NCBI GenBank assembly: GCA_007136585.1
Contig: SLGR01000098.1
Location: 1-12,825 of the forward strand
Length of the DNA stretch: 12,825 nt
DNA from: Candidatus Sumerlaeota bacterium
GTDB taxonomy: Bacteria > CG03 > SLGR01
Reading direction: 5' to 3'
Shown one piece after another: positions 257 through 6,292 of this stretch. The position numbers and the translations under genes are program-made. Position 1 is the first letter of the stretch. Each line of letters begins with the position of its first letter. Below the pieces are notes generated by a model. That model searched no databases. It was not told where the DNA came from and was given only the letters and a program-made list of their open reading frames with translations.

Positions 257-278
257 CCTGTCTTCTCTAAAGGACAGG
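257..278 (-). other. Small hairpin across the glnA stop codon
   Basis: CCTGTC (257-262) and GACAGG (273-278) form a 6-bp inverted repeat with a 10-base loop that contains the glnA TAG. The same hexamers recur in the 181-243 repeat, so alternative pairings are possible in the glnA 3' region. There is no following U-run, so it is not a convincing terminator alone. Confidence 0.3.
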
Positions 279-1607
279 GAGATAATTCTTTATCTCGTAA
301 TCGGTAACCTGTGTCCTGTAATTATCCCATTCTATCTTCTTGTTTTCAATAAACTTGGCAAATACATGTTCACCAAGAGTTTCCCTGAGAAAATCCGATT
401 TCTCAGCCTCAAGGATTGCTTCTATCAGGCTCCCCGGAAGCGTACTTATACCCATACTTTCGCGTTCCTGATCTGAAAGATGGAAAACATCCGTTTCAGT
501 GGGATCTCCCAGCTCGTACCTGTTTTTTATACCCTCAAGTCCGGCAGCCAGCATAACACTGAAAGCAAGATAGGGGTTGCAGGCAGGATCCGGAAACCTC
601 AGCTCTATCCTTGTGGCGTTCTCCTTACCGGGCTTATACATAGGCACCCTTACCAGCGCGGAACGGTTTTTCTGACCCCATACTAAATATACAGGGGCCT
701 CGTACCCGGGCACCAGACGTTTATAGGAGTTGACCCACTGATTGGTTATGGCGCATATTTCCCTGGCATGCCTCATTATGCCGGCCGTAAAGAACCTTGC
801 CTCTTCGGAAAGATGATAGGGAGCTCCTTCCTCGTAAAAGGCGTTCCTTCCGTCCTTAAAAAGAGACATATGCACATGCATTCCGCTTCCGTTTTCACCC
901 ATAAGAGGTTTCGGCATAAACGAAGCGTACATCCCTGAAAGCCAGGCTATGGCCTTAACGGCAACTTTATAGCTTATCACATCGTCAGCCATATCAAGAG
1001 CCGAAGCATACCTCAAATCTATCTCATGCTGACTGGGGGCAACCTCGTGGTGGGAATACTCCACCGGTATCCCCATTTCCTGCAGGGTCAGTATGGTGTC
1101 CCTTCTTAGATCCTGCCCCATATCAAGCGGCATAAGATCAAAGTACCCTCCCTCATCCGTGATTTCAGGACTTTTACCGGACTTGAAATAAAAATACTCA
1201 AGCTCCGGGCCTACACAAAAATCATCATACCCGGCAGCCTTCATTTTCTCAATGTTTCTCCTGAGAACATACCTGGGGTCACCGGCATAAGGGTTTCCGT
1301 CAGGCGTAAGTATGTCGCAGAACATCCTTGCCACCCGGCATCCGTCCTCGCATCTCCACGGGAGCACGGTAAAAGTAGAAGGGTCGGGTTTTCCGATAAG
1401 GTCGCTCTCGTATATCCTGGCAAAACCCTCTATTGATGACCCGTCAAACCCCATCCCGTCTTCCAGGGCTGTCTCTATCTCGTCAGGAGTAACCGAAAAC
1501 GATTTAACCTGTCCCAGGATATCAACAAACCAGAACTTGACGAACCTTACCTTTTCATCCTTCATCTCCCTCAAAACCTCTTCACTTCCATAATTGCGGT
1601 CTCTCAT
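267..1607 (-). CDS. glnA: Glutamine synthetase, type I-alpha
   Basis: ATP-dependent ligation of ammonia to glutamate, the entry point of nitrogen assimilation; GSI enzymes are cytosolic dodecamers. The 446 residues align throughout with the short Bacillus-type enzyme (about 444 residues). Visible signatures are FDGSSIEGF (54-62), GPELEYF (133-139), HHEVAPSQHEID (186-197), NGSGMH, RLVPGYEAP and RFPDPACNPYLA. The roughly 25-residue insertion and the NLY adenylylation motif of GSI-beta are absent, so control by GlnE is not expected. The Arg in GFAR (64) matches the Bacillus Arg62 involved in glutamine feedback. The ATG at 1605-1607 follows AAAGGAGGA at a short spacing. It has its own promoter at 1754-1782 and a long leader, and converges with the aminotransferase. 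The stop is TAG. Confidence 0.98.
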   Translation of the reverse strand: MRDRNYGSEEVLREMKDEKVRFVKFWFVDILGQVKSFSVTPDEIETALEDGMGFDGSSIEGFARIYESDLIGKPDPSTFTVLPWRCEDGCRVARMFCDILTPDGNPYAGDPRYVLRRNIEKMKAAGYDDFCVGPELEYFYFKSGKSPEITDEGGYFDLMPLDMGQDLRRDTILTLQEMGIPVEYSHHEVAPSQHEIDLRYASALDMADDVISYKVAVKAIAWLSGMYASFMPKPLMGENGSGMHVHMSLFKDGRNAFYEEGAPYHLSEEARFFTAGIMRHAREICAITNQWVNSYKRLVPGYEAPVYLVWGQKNRSALVRVPMYKPGKENATRIELRFPDPACNPYLAFSVMLAAGLEGIKNRYELGDPTETDVFHLSDQERESMGISTLPGSLIEAILEAEKSDFLRETLGEHVFAKFIENKKIEWDNYRTQVTDYEIKNYLPVL

Positions 1608-1793: not shown

Positions 1794-2201
1794 TCAGAAA
1801 TCAAGAACCATAGCCCTTGTAGGGCAGGCGCTTATGCAGAGCTCACAGGCTATACATTTGTCACTGTCAAAAATTATTTTCCGTTCAGATCCTTCGGCAT
1901 ACAGCGCTTCAGTGGGACAGATAACTATACAGGCCCCGCAATGGGTGCACTTCTCCTCATCCCTTTTTATATCCTTGGATAGGGGTTCTAATGTGACACC
2001 CGCATCAGAAAGATATTTTACCCCCTTATCAAACTCTTCTTCATCCCCGGAAAGCTCCATAACCATAAGCCCTTCCTCATCGGGGAGGATCTTGGCCTTC
2101 AGAATATTAAATCTCAGGTTAAAATCCCTTATAAGCCTGTAAACTATAGGCTGATTGACGCATTTTCGGGGAAAATGAAGAACTATTTTTTTTGTTTTCA
2201 A
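1794..2201 (-). CDS. NIL-domain 2[4Fe-4S] ferredoxin, iron-sulfur subunit for homocysteine synthesis
   Basis: This 135-residue protein has an N-terminal NIL domain (about 3-76, the ligand-binding fold also found at the C-terminus of methionine ABC ATPases). Two classical [4Fe-4S] motifs follow: CTHCGACIVICP (Cys 85, 88, 91, 95) and CIACELCISACP (Cys 116, 119, 122, 126). It matches MA1822 of Methanosarcina, which works with the COG1900 protein MA1821 in converting aspartate semialdehyde to homocysteine; the ferredoxin is thought to supply electrons. The start is a TTG at 2199-2201 whose last two bases lie in the upstream TGA (4-base TTGA overlap), preceded by GGAAGGGG at good spacing. The tight overlap suggests translational coupling and a 1:1 complex. 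The family call is firm; the electron-transfer role is known only from homologues. Confidence 0.92.
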   Translation of the reverse strand: MKTKKIVLHFPRKCVNQPIVYRLIRDFNLRFNILKAKILPDEEGLMVMELSGDEEEFDKGVKYLSDAGVTLEPLSKDIKRDEEKCTHCGACIVICPTEALYAEGSERKIIFDSDKCIACELCISACPTRAMVLDF

Positions 2202-3364
2202 CGGGAACCCCTTCCGTCAGGAAGATACTTTTGGGGTTCCCCCAGGAAGAACCGCCCTTTGAGTATCTGTTTTTTTAGTATATCCGCTATTTCCAAAGCC
2301 TTATAATATGAAGAAAGAGAACCGGTGGGAACCTCCAGGTCGGAAATTTTTACGGTCCCCGACTTAAGCTCTTCATAAGTAACGCTTCCAAGCACCCTGC
2401 CTGTAGAGTTTGGATAATCATTTGAGTAATCCACCACGGGACAGCTTAACTCACTGTCTGAGACCCCGCAAAACGCGGCTATCTCTTCATCCAGCACCGG
2501 TATCGGAACTCCTATACCAACCATTAAACTTGGCCCGTACCCAGTCATAGAAACACCTTTGACCCACTCAGGAGACATTTCCTTTAGGTTTCCGGTCACC
2601 ATTAGCGTTCCTCCGGGCTGAAGAGGAAACCCTTTACTGTTCCTCTCTACACCGGGTTTATGCTGAGTTCCCTGCCACGTGACATACCCTTCCGCGCCAC
2701 CCAGGAAAATTCTGGTTCCGATACCTATGGTCCGGAAAAAAGGATCGTTTAATAGCGGGGAGAGCTGGCCGGCGCTGCAAAAATTTGCGTTTCCCAGGTT
2801 GCCTTTGAGGATCCCCATATAGGTATATACCGTTTTTTCCGAAGTATTTACGGCGCAGTTATAGTTCTGGTATGCGTTCCTGGGGTTCACCATAACAGCT
2901 TCGGGTATATCGTCAAGCGTTATCTCCGCTTCATAATACTTTGACGGGTAACAGTCGGTTCCGTAGGCTGTGGCCTCCAGATGAATTTTATTTTTCCTTA
3001 CCAGGTCTTCCAGAAGGTGGCCTCCCCCGTAAGTGAAACTCCCCGGCTTTTCCCTGTTAAGCGGGTCATCTTCCGCTACCTGGGTTGCACCGATGTAAAT
3101 ATCAACGGCGGCAAGCCCGGCATAAGCCTCTACGCCGTTTAAAAAAACTTTCTGCATCTTCATCTTGGGGCGGGGGTGCCCCAGATTAAGGAACGCGCCG
3201 GAGGAACACATCGGACCGAAGGTTCCCGTAGTAACCACATCCACTTTTTCCGCCGCTTCTTCCGCCCCGGATTTCTTAACCACGGTGACCATCTCTTCGG
3301 CGGTTACGACAACCGCATTTCCAGAGCGTATCTTTTCATTGATTTCAGATATTGTCTTATTCAT
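2198..3364 (-). CDS. COG1900/DUF39 homocysteine biosynthesis protein (aspartate semialdehyde sulfurtransferase), short form without CBS domains
   Basis: The protein is recognisable as COG1900 from VTTGTFGPMCSSGAFLNLGHPRPK, AYGTDCYPSKYYE, NCAVN, GAEGYVTWQGTQH and the VDYSNDYPN region near the C-terminus. The homologue MA1821 makes homocysteine by transferring sulfur to aspartate semialdehyde in anaerobes lacking the usual O-acyl-homoserine route. Two cysteines in conserved contexts, in GPMCSSG and GTDCYPS (56 and 141 counted from the upstream GTG), are the likely sulfur carriers. The protein ends after the core domain, whereas MA1821 carries C-terminal CBS repeats. The frame opens at a GTG at 3373 (391 residues). 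I prefer the ATG at 3362-3364 (388 residues) because GGGTGAT sits just before it and a promoter at 3382-3410 would start RNA near 3375. It overlaps the NIL-ferredoxin by 4 bases. Confidence 0.92.
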   Translation of the reverse strand: MNKTISEINEKIRSGNAVVVTAEEMVTVVKKSGAEEAAEKVDVVTTGTFGPMCSSGAFLNLGHPRPKMKMQKVFLNGVEAYAGLAAVDIYIGATQVAEDDPLNREKPGSFTYGGGHLLEDLVRKNKIHLEATAYGTDCYPSKYYEAEITLDDIPEAVMVNPRNAYQNYNCAVNTSEKTVYTYMGILKGNLGNANFCSAGQLSPLLNDPFFRTIGIGTRIFLGGAEGYVTWQGTQHKPGVERNSKGFPLQPGGTLMVTGNLKEMSPEWVKGVSMTGYGPSLMVGIGVPIPVLDEEIAAFCGVSDSELSCPVVDYSNDYPNSTGRVLGSVTYEELKSGTVKISDLEVPTGSLSSYYKALEIADILKKQILKGRFFLGEPQKYLPDGRGSR

Positions 3365-3381
3365 TTCTATCACCCGGCTTT

Positions 3382-3410
3382 TTTATAATATATTTCCGGA
3401 ACGTTTTCAA
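3382..3410 (-). promoter_or_regulatory. Internal promoter for the COG1900/NIL-ferredoxin pair
   Basis: Minus strand: TTGAAA (3405-3410, 5 of 6) then 17 bases then TATAAA (3382-3387, 5 of 6). It lies in the 55-base gap after the UPF0280 gene. The predicted start near 3375 leaves only about 10 bases before the ATG at 3364. The spacer contains the perfect palindrome TTCCGGAA (3394-3401), which may be an operator or chance. Confidence 0.68.
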
Positions 3411-3419
3411 GAAGAATTC

Positions 3420-4145
3420 TTAAAGTTCAACAATCTCTATATTCCCGCAAGCCCCCAAGCTCTCTTTTACGATAGCAAGAGCTCCGTGTATACCATTTAT
3501 TTTAACTGTTTTCTCAAGAACAGACGCGATATCGTCCTTAGAATGGATCCTGTTTGCGGCAGAGGTCGCGACGGCATCGGCAAGAGGCGGCGTATCTCCC
3601 GCGCATACAACCGCATCTGAGGCTCCTCCGGAGAAAGAGTGTCCTACCGTCGCCGATGAGGTGCAGACCCCGGCGCCGTCCGGGGCTTTTACCCTGATAC
3701 CGAACTTCATACTTAAAGGGGAGCTTCCGGCAAAAACAGCAACGGTTATCTCATTTTCGCTTCGGATATATATATCCCCGCCGTTTTCAACAATAACTTC
3801 AGGGGAATACTCAAGGAGAAATTTACCCACCTCCTCGGCTACAACCCCGGCTACAGCCGCCATAGGGCCCACCCCGGCGGAACGTGAAGCCGTTATCATT
3901 CTACTCACAGGACCGCTGACCCCCGGGGGCTCATTCACCGGGAGAAGAGATTCGGCTATCTCGGGGTATTTCTGCAGATCACGCTTTATAAGGGCCCTGA
4001 CCCGTGAAAGCTGCTGTTCCGCCGGGTGTATGAAAACCCCCCTTGTCATAACCCTTAAGTCCGATTCTTCTTCCTTTATATCATACCCGGAGAGCTTTCC
4101 GGAGGCGTTTATTCTGTAGTTTCGCTTAATGTATACTGCGGTCAC
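3420..4145 (-). CDS. UPF0280/COG2122 ApbE-like protein linked to sulfide assimilation
   Basis: The family is shown by VYIKRNYR near the N-terminus, GVFIHPAEQQ, SRSAGVGPMAAVAGVVAEEVGK, VIVENGGDIYI and the GVCTSSATVGHSFSGGASDAVV region, typical of ApbE-like folds. The Methanosarcina member MA1715 is needed for efficient sulfide use in homocysteine synthesis; its chemistry is not settled. The frame stays open upstream to an ATG at 4259 (279 residues), but that would overlap the sensor gene by 80 bases with residues foreign to the family. The GTG at 4143-4145 gives 241 residues, the usual length, beginning just before VYIKRNYR, and is chosen here. It lacks a good ribosome binding site. The gene sits between the sensor gene and COG1900, consistent with a shared pathway with the latter. 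Confidence 0.88.
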   Translation of the reverse strand: MTAVYIKRNYRINASGKLSGYDIKEEESDLRVMTRGVFIHPAEQQLSRVRALIKRDLQKYPEIAESLLPVNEPPGVSGPVSRMITASRSAGVGPMAAVAGVVAEEVGKFLLEYSPEVIVENGGDIYIRSENEITVAVFAGSSPLSMKFGIRVKAPDGAGVCTSSATVGHSFSGGASDAVVCAGDTPPLADAVATSAANRIHSKDDIASVLEKTVKINGIHGALAIVKESLGACGNIEIVEL

Positions 4146-4179: not shown

Positions 4180-5052
4180 TTACGCTCCCCCCATTCTCTT
4201 TTCCTCAAGGCGGCGCCGGGCCTCCTCATCCTGCCTGGAATAGGCTTTAAGTATACCAAGCCCCGCCTGGCTTGCGACAGCGGAAAGGGTTATCATCTGT
4301 TCGGTTGTAAAACCCCCGGAATCTCCCGTTCTCTCAAAAATTATATACCCGAGAGGCATACCGTCCTCCGTTACCGGTTCACCGAGAAGAACCCCGGCAT
4401 CATCTGAAAGCATTATGCGCTCCCCCGAAGATTCAGAAGCTTTCCGGGAAGCATCTTCCCCGTCAAGGATCACAGTTCCACGGCTGTAGACTACATCGTA
4501 AAAATCAGTAAAACGGTTATAAATCAGCATCATAGCCCCCGTAGCCTCAAGTTCCTCAAAGAGCCGGCCTATGAGCCCTTCTGAAATTTCTTCCAGAGCC
4601 CCCCCGGCGCTTACTATTCTTCCGGTATCGTAAACGGTTATAAGGTACTCGGAAGTTCTGCGGAGACGCCGTGATATCTCCTTAACCGCCCCGAAAAGGA
4701 ACTTAAGCCCCGGCTGCGGATTATCAAAGATGAACCGGCGAAAATCACCATTATTTACCTTATATAGTGAAACATCCGTTTTAGCCACCGCATCCGCGCT
4801 CCTTGAGGCGTCCTCAAAAAGGGACATCTCCCCGAAAATGTTTCCCGGTTCTATTATACTCAAGACCCTGCTGCCTTTTCTTATCTCGACCTTCCCGGAT
4901 TCCACTATATACAGTGAACTCCCCGGGTCGTTCTCCCTGAATACAGGAGCGTCTTTACTTACATTTTCAACCGTAAGCATCTCTCCCAGTTTTTGCAGAG
5001 CCTCATCAGGAAAAATTTCCAGAATCCGTATTTTTTTAAGTTTCTCTATCAC
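4180..5052 (-). CDS. Cyclic-nucleotide-binding domain plus GAF-like domain sensor protein
   Basis: Residues about 5-125 form a CRP-type cyclic-nucleotide-binding domain. It shows the FRENDPGSSLYIVESGKVEI strand region and a phosphate-binding cassette FGEMSLFEDASRSADA (73-88) with the expected Glu and Arg. Residues about 150-270 read as a GAF-like domain (EGLIGRLFEELEATGAMMLIYN through LGYIIFERTGDSGGFTTEQMITLSAVASQAG). A charged helix with EEARRRLEEKR ends the protein. No helix-turn-helix is present, so it is not an ordinary CRP-type repressor or activator; it more likely binds a partner. No membrane segment is seen. The GTG start overlaps the pilT TGA by 4 bases (GTGA), which points to co-translation with PilT. 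The ligand is unknown. Its 3' end has a run of six Gs just before the stop. Confidence 0.85.
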   Translation of the reverse strand: MIEKLKKIRILEIFPDEALQKLGEMLTVENVSKDAPVFRENDPGSSLYIVESGKVEIRKGSRVLSIIEPGNIFGEMSLFEDASRSADAVAKTDVSLYKVNNGDFRRFIFDNPQPGLKFLFGAVKEISRRLRRTSEYLITVYDTGRIVSAGGALEEISEGLIGRLFEELEATGAMMLIYNRFTDFYDVVYSRGTVILDGEDASRKASESSGERIMLSDDAGVLLGEPVTEDGMPLGYIIFERTGDSGGFTTEQMITLSAVASQAGLGILKAYSRQDEEARRRLEEKRMGGA

Positions 5053-6113
5053 AGCCCTGCCGCTCCAAGGGTGGCTTCAAACATCTTGAGGTTATTGGCT
5101 TTTGCTTTTGCTGTCTCTTTCTTCACAAGCCCTTTCTTTACAAGGGAGGCAAGGTCCTTATCAAGGCTCCTCATTCCCAGCCTGCCCCCAACATCTATGG
5201 CGCTGTAAATCTGGTGAGTCTTTCCTTCCCTGATAAGATTGGAAATGGCGGCATTTACTATCATAATCTCCCGCGCCGCCACACGCCCGCTCCCTGTGGC
5301 GTTGGGCAGAAGCTGCTGGCATATGACAGCCTTTAACACGCCCGAGAGCTGGGTCCGTATCTGCTGCTGCTGGAACGGTGGAAAGACATCTATAATCCTG
5401 TCCACAGTCTGAGCGGCATCGGTAGTGTGAAGAGTAGCAAAGACAAGGTGACCTGTTTCTGCAAGGGTAAGAGCCGCCGCGATTGTCTCGAGATCGCGCA
5501 TCTCGCCTACAAGCATTACATCAGGGTCCTGCCTCATGGCCCGCTTCAGGGCCTCCGAGAAGCCTTTTGTATGGCTTCCTATCTCACGCTGGGTAACAAC
5601 ACAGCTTCCCCGCGGGTAAACATATTCTATGGGATCTTCTATGGTGACGATATGATCTTTTCTCTCCATATTGATCATATTGAGAAGAGATGCCAGTGTA
5701 GTGGATTTCCCGCTCCCGGTCGGACCGGTTACCAGTATGATGCCCCTGGGGGTATCCTTAAGTGTTGTAATCGTCTCATCAAGTCCTATTTCTGAAGGGG
5801 AGGGTATTTCCGAAGGTATCACACGCAGAACAGCCCCCACTCCGTCCTTCTGGGAAAGGACGTTTACCCTGAAACGTCCTATATCCTGGGCGTTTATTGA
5901 AGTATCAAGCTCACCCTCAACCTTGAACTTGTCTATGAGTTTCTCGGCAAGCATACCGTATATGATACGCTGGGTCATATCAGGGGGAAGGATATCGGAA
6001 TTGAGGCTCCTCATCTGTCCGCCGATTCTTAGGAAAGGTTTCCGCCCCGGAACTATATGTATATCCGAAGCGCCGTGCTTTACCGCAGCCATCAAGATTT
6101 CTTTTATATCCAT
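5049..6113 (-). CDS. pilT: Type IV pilus retraction ATPase PilT
   Basis: Hexameric secretion-superfamily ATPase that powers pilus retraction and twitching motility from the cytoplasmic face of the inner membrane. Visible are GASDIHIVPG near the N-terminus, Walker A GPTGSGKS (about 130-137), an Asp-rich stretch TIEDPIEYVY, Walker B DPDVMLVGEMRD, a His box ETGHLVFATLHT and ICQQLLP. The PilT hallmark AIRNLIRE appears as AISNLIRE (about 289-296), an Arg to Ser change. An upstream GTG at 6131 would give 360 residues; the ATG at 6111-6113 (354 residues) is preferred because AAAAAGGAG lies six bases before it. No other pilus gene is in the window. It overlaps the sensor gene by 4 bases. No convincing promoter was found in the 104 bases between it and the tRNA. 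Confidence 0.95.
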   Translation of the reverse strand: MDIKEILMAAVKHGASDIHIVPGRKPFLRIGGQMRSLNSDILPPDMTQRIIYGMLAEKLIDKFKVEGELDTSINAQDIGRFRVNVLSQKDGVGAVLRVIPSEIPSPSEIGLDETITTLKDTPRGIILVTGPTGSGKSTTLASLLNMINMERKDHIVTIEDPIEYVYPRGSCVVTQREIGSHTKGFSEALKRAMRQDPDVMLVGEMRDLETIAAALTLAETGHLVFATLHTTDAAQTVDRIIDVFPPFQQQQIRTQLSGVLKAVICQQLLPNATGSGRVAAREIMIVNAAISNLIREGKTHQIYSAIDVGGRLGMRSLDKDLASLVKKGLVKKETAKAKANNLKMFEATLGAAGL

Positions 6114-6217
6114 AAGAGGCTCCTTTTTCACGGGTAGAGATCCCGCTTTTACATCATCCGAAGGCCAGATGTCTTAATATTGAAGAAATGGGAAAGACCC
6201 TGGAAATAAAAAATTTC

Positions 6218-6292
6218 TGGAGCGGGCGATGGGATTTGAACCCACGGCCTTCTCGTTGGCAACGAGACGTTCTTCCACTGAACTACGCCCGC
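6218..6292 (-). tRNA. tRNA-Gly (anticodon GCC), CCA encoded
   Basis: The minus strand folds as a full cloverleaf. The acceptor stem is GCGGGCG/CGCCCGC, the D arm is in GTTCAGTGGAAGAAC, the anticodon stem is TCTCG/CGAGA and the loop is TTGCCAA (anticodon GCC at 6258-6260). The T arm is GTGGG-TTCAAAT-CCCAT. Discriminator U and the 3' CCA are encoded (6218-6221). It starts only 22 bases after the pgk stop and is followed by a T-rich stretch (GAAATTTTTTATTT), so it may be processed from the gap-pgk transcript. Confidence 0.98.

Follow-up and report, generated by a model that had tools for sequence, protein, structure and literature searches.

The locus analysed here raises the question of how its host makes homocysteine. 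Within the window, by which we mean the whole stretch of 12,825 nucleotides, a first-pass annotation had picked out neighbouring genes for a COG2122 protein, a COG1900 protein and a NIL-domain ferredoxin, and had proposed that they make homocysteine from aspartate semialdehyde without an O-acylhomoserine intermediate. Family matches, conserved cysteines, an asd gene for the precursor and a genome in which no O-acylhomoserine route was found all support this reading. We put at about 0.88 the probability that the trio encodes the aspartate-semialdehyde sulfurtransferase route to homocysteine, the chemistry of which would presumably run in the window bacterium as outlined below.

Layout of the gene trio

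The three genes lie side by side, as had been proposed, all on the minus strand, and in the order of transcription COG2122 comes first, followed by COG1900 and by the NIL-ferredoxin (Table 1). The four-base overlap reported between the last two genes is real, and COG1900 and the NIL-ferredoxin are likely translationally coupled through it; the coding-strand sequence upstream of the ferredoxin TTG start is GGAAGGGG. The start of the COG1900 gene is most likely ATG 3364 rather than GTG 3373, because homologue alignments begin at the former, and that of the COG2122 gene was placed near its GTG codon.

Table 1. Coordinates of the trio and of its two immediate neighbours in the window
Feature	Position	Strand	Remarks
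COG2122 (MA1715-type)	3420..4145	minus	241 aa from GTG 4145; ENGGD motif
COG1900 / HcyBio (DUF39, L-aspartate-semialdehyde sulfurtransferase large subunit)	2198..3364	minus	388 aa from ATG 3364
NIL-domain 2[4Fe-4S] ferredoxin (MA1822-type)	1794..2201	minus	135 aa from TTG 2201
TTGA overlap	2198..2201	minus	NIL-ferredoxin TTG start shares bases with COG1900 TGA stop (sequence)
glnA	267-1607		neighbour on the NIL-ferredoxin side of the trio
Cyclic-nucleotide-binding (cNMP) protein	4180-5052		neighbour on the COG2122 side of the trio

The gene that follows the NIL-ferredoxin, glnA, has a promoter-like site of its own. Upstream of the trio, the gene of the cNMP-binding protein overlaps by 4 bases that of a PilT-like ATPase (the pair spans 4180-6131). 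The same pair is found at the same position in two related genomes, G002 and G005, at about 1.2 kb from the COG2122 gene. A tRNA-Gly (gcc) is encoded on the minus strand at 6218-6292, between pgk and the PilT-like gene. When RNA control elements, including a SAM riboswitch, were sought in the window, the sole match at gathering thresholds was a tRNA.

Protein families and conserved cysteines

The family searches suggested at the outset for the three proteins were run, and each returned the expected family. The COG1900 protein matches the HcyBio family (PF01837) with 518.9 bits for a cut-off of 26.2, over the whole of the model (1-349 of 349). It contains exactly two invariant cysteines, Cys53 (context TGTFGPMCSSG) and Cys138 (context YGTDCYP), both of which are retained in 97 of 97 distinct homologues. 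A loss of the conserved cysteines on alignment with MA1821 of Methanosarcina acetivorans had been named as one observation that would refute the reading; among the homologues aligned here, the two cysteines of the family are retained. According to PMC12068725, COG1900a proteins have two nearly universal cysteines, Cys54 and Cys131 of MA1821, of which the former is essential and the latter is not. Cys53 and Cys138 would be the equivalents of these residues, as the position numbers fit if a short indel is allowed for 138 versus 131.

AlphaFold2 modelled the COG1900 protein with confidence (pLDDT 87.9, pTM 0.88). A sequence search of the PDB gave no relatives, and comparison of the model with solved structures gave no meaningful fold relative (Foldseek best E 0.3; VIA-align best Z 4.2). 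No homologue of the protein was found on a plasmid.

The COG1900 protein had also been described as a short form from which a regulatory CBS module is missing. Indeed, the window protein has no CBS match, although this is not a loss of its own: a CBS pair occurs in 0 of the 101 bacterial homologues examined, and 100 of these sequences stop at most 30 residues past the COG1900 domain. The only longer one, at locus L016, carries a ferredoxin there and not CBS. Judging from these homologues, the short form without CBS is the bacterial norm rather than a special loss.

The COG2122 protein matches NF003323 (E 1.3e-68) with 231 bits, below the equivalog cut-off of 271, and PDB entry 2o34 (phmmer E 5.5e-35); it has no Pfam match at the threshold used. 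None of its cysteines is invariant among 15 homologues, on which ground a cysteine-relay role was rejected, and its proposed function is that of a sulfide- or persulfide-loading factor. The COG2122 gene of G005 (L034 4948-5766, also seen as part of L004) contains a TGA codon in frame, at a site occupied by a conserved glycine in its homologues. As this is not a cysteine site, selenocysteine was ruled out, and the codon may reflect either a truncating point change or a sequencing error.

The third protein combines a NIL domain (PF09383, 61.5 bits) with two subsequent 4Fe-4S motifs (Fer4, 58.4 bits), whose eight cysteines are all invariant in 18 homologues. The window ferredoxin retains the NIL domain, for which methionine binding has been proposed (PMC12068725) and which is the putative methionine sensor.

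These features can be placed in a scheme drawn from other organisms. A genetic need for the three proteins, a persulfide on a COG1900 cysteine and an essential Cys54 are described there. The persulfide and a thioaldehyde intermediate are proposals of Rauch and colleagues, as cited in PMC5764234. In the window bacterium, sulfur derived from sulfide would be loaded, with the help of COG2122, onto the active-site cysteine of COG1900 (Cys53) to give a persulfide, and would pass from there to the aldehyde group of L-aspartate semialdehyde. Reduction of the resulting intermediate, at the thioaldehyde level, to homocysteine would take two electrons supplied by the two [4Fe-4S] clusters of the NIL-ferredoxin, whose NIL domain may provide feedback by sensing methionine.

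Probable route of homocysteine synthesis in the genome and in its relatives

The genome to which the window belongs (G000) is a draft of 1.88 Mb, 88% complete, so that absences from it are weak on their own. An asd gene is present on contig 133 (PF02774, E 9.2e-52) and accounts for the supply of aspartate semialdehyde. A complete O-acylhomoserine sulfhydrylase route in the same genome had been named beforehand as another finding that would refute the reading. A search that covered MetX, as the acyltransferase, and the PF01053 enzymes found no MetX and no MetB, MetY or MetZ. The best match to Cys_Met_Meta_PP (PF01053) reached about 28 bits, and of the weak matches that were opened, one is a cysteine desulfurase relative on contig 90 and one, by sequence, a class V aminotransferase on contig 216. 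The presence of a homoserine dehydrogenase without the classical methionine route is accounted for by a hom-thrC-thrB cassette for threonine, also on contig 133. Methionine synthase, sought as MetE or the homocysteine-binding domain of MetH, was not found in G000; relatives of the same family carry a MetH-type protein, and the absence is probably due to assembly incompleteness.

In a survey of 16 genomes of the phylum, COG1900 is found in 12, 11 of which have neither MetX nor a full-length PF01053 enzyme, G012 being the one with both routes. Conversely, G011 is devoid of COG1900 and COG2122 and possesses MetX together with a full-length PF01053 (MetY-type) enzyme. Ten of the 12 genomes have COG2122 next to COG1900, and the whole trio is together in eight (G000, G001, G003, G006, G007, G008, G012 and G014), while the contigs of G002, G005 and G010 end part-way through the cluster. 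Among named relatives, the closest are MAGs that bear the label Elusimicrobia (L034-L036), at 68-70% identity. Outside the phylum, the full trio occurs at L048, L063, L092, L099 and L017, and most Desulfobacterota loci have COG1900 alone within the flanking DNA examined. Since relatives and members of other phyla share the adjacency, it is not due to chance.

Several variants of the locus were met in this survey. A DUF4139-like gene of about 465 codons lies between COG1900 and the NIL-ferredoxin in G003 and G007 (L148 3280-4689, L149 2221-3609), and also follows COG1900, up to the contig end, in G002 and G005. In G014, which is 90% complete with 6% contamination, COG1900 and the NIL-ferredoxin occur together at two loci, L152 and L153, only one of which includes COG2122; the duplication could reflect a paralogue or contamination. 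At L016 (1447-3526), in a one-contig genome of 1.4 Mb (G051), COG1900 carries a 4Fe-4S ferredoxin, without NIL, as a C-terminal fusion, and the COG2122 gene downstream overlaps the fusion gene. Both this fusion and the compact cluster of the window lend themselves to biochemical reconstitution of the enzyme, for which the PDB offered neither a sequence match nor a convincing fold match. Furthermore, a sulfide-dependent Thi4 (ADP thiazole synthase) is encoded at L148 4702-5919 (TIGR00292, 325.5 bits), at L149 974-2206 and at L150 and L151. As Thi4 comes after the NIL-ferredoxin in these four relatives, two sulfide-using pathways adjoin there.

Another locus of G000 deserves mention, an operon on contig 90 (L147 2681-6623) for which our literature search found no description of its type. 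It encodes a threonine synthase-like enzyme (407 aa), a ThiS/SAMP1-like carrier ending in GG, a free-standing NIL protein (81 aa), a ThiF/MoeB-like enzyme and the cysteine desulfurase relative mentioned above. Given the cassette on contig 133, the first of these proteins is a threonine synthase paralogue; its counterparts in G001 and G004 share 89-93% identity with it, against only 74-76% for the DNA. In a speculative and rather improbable extension of the main reading, G000 would have two sulfur routes into the aspartate family, the trio and a second one in which this paralogue uses a ThiS-like thiocarboxylate (for example to make homocysteine out of O-phosphohomoserine); NIL domains would sense the product of either route.

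A stronger version, in which homocysteine comes mainly from the contig 90 operon (for instance by way of O-phosphohomoserine and a thiocarboxylated protein) and the window cluster plays an auxiliary part, is in our view highly unlikely. It could draw on the presence of the operon in G000 itself as well as in G001 and G004, on the paralogue status of its synthase-like protein and on G004, where neither COG1900 nor COG2122 was detected. However, the operon was recognised in only 3 of the 16 genomes against 12 for COG1900, its product assignment is putative, and most COG1900 genomes have neither the operon nor MetX/MetY.

Less probable still is that COG1900 acts on another aldehyde, homocysteine coming from elsewhere. 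The COG1900 family has several subfamilies, one of which, MMP16 or ComF (COG1900d), is a coenzyme M synthase of the same HcyBio domain family with analogous aldehyde-to-thiol chemistry (PMC12068725), and the window protein does match the MMP16 model weakly. Nevertheless, its 164.1 bits against TIGR03287 fall far under the cut-off of 363.95, which rules out that it is MMP16. MMP16/ComF, moreover, has an inserted ferredoxin domain and its cysteines elsewhere, whereas the window protein lacks such an insertion, is accompanied by a separate NIL-ferredoxin and has both invariant cysteines of the homocysteine type; nor did the searches for MetX and PF01053 enzymes reveal any known type of alternative homocysteine route in the genome. 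Finally, it is scarcely credible that the trio serves chiefly for sulfide assimilation in general and also feeds thiazole synthesis: Thi4 does follow the NIL-ferredoxin in G001, G003, G006 and G007, with the TIGR00292 match in G003 pointing to the sulfide-dependent enzyme, but the next gene in the window is glnA, the trio is found without Thi4 at other loci, and no report known to us makes Thi4 dependent on the trio proteins.

The aspartate-semialdehyde route encoded by the trio stands as the best explanation. Counting against it are the draft state of the genome, in which no methionine synthase was found, the lack of an invariant cysteine in COG2122 and the second sulfur-carrier operon, on contig 90. 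It explains how the lineage labelled Elusimicrobia at NCBI can make homocysteine without MetX/MetY, and for this reason its bacteria should not be labelled methionine auxotrophs on MetX/MetY grounds.

Comparison with known systems

In M. acetivorans, MA1821, MA1822 and MA1715 form a set like that of the window, with a two-cysteine COG1900 subunit, a NIL-ferredoxin subunit and a COG2122 partner. MA1821 has C-terminal CBS domains, with a proposed control by SAM, which the window protein does not have; such domains belong to the archaeal form and do not define the bacterial proteins.

Among bacteria, Price et al. 2018 (PMC5764234) established by genetics that all three proteins are needed for homocysteine in Desulfovibrio. 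There, DvMF_1464, DvMF_0262 and DvMF_0044 belong to the same three families, no classical route was found and hom is kept for threonine; D. vulgaris likewise has a homoserine dehydrogenase without the classical methionine route (PMC5764234). The Desulfovibrio trio has widely separated locus tags, whereas in the window all three genes are adjacent.

This compactness, which the first-pass annotation had considered noteworthy, turns out not to be unusual, as the trio is also found in relatives within the phylum and in other phyla, and an adjacent run in Dehalococcoides, DET0921:DET0919, was already known (PMC5764234). The Dehalococcoides genes were proposed for the same pathway and are likened here by their description. 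Our literature search found no report of the pathway in the window lineage. The pathway itself is not new, being known from methanogens and sulfate reducers, and the window is an ordinary further instance of it in a poorly sampled lineage.
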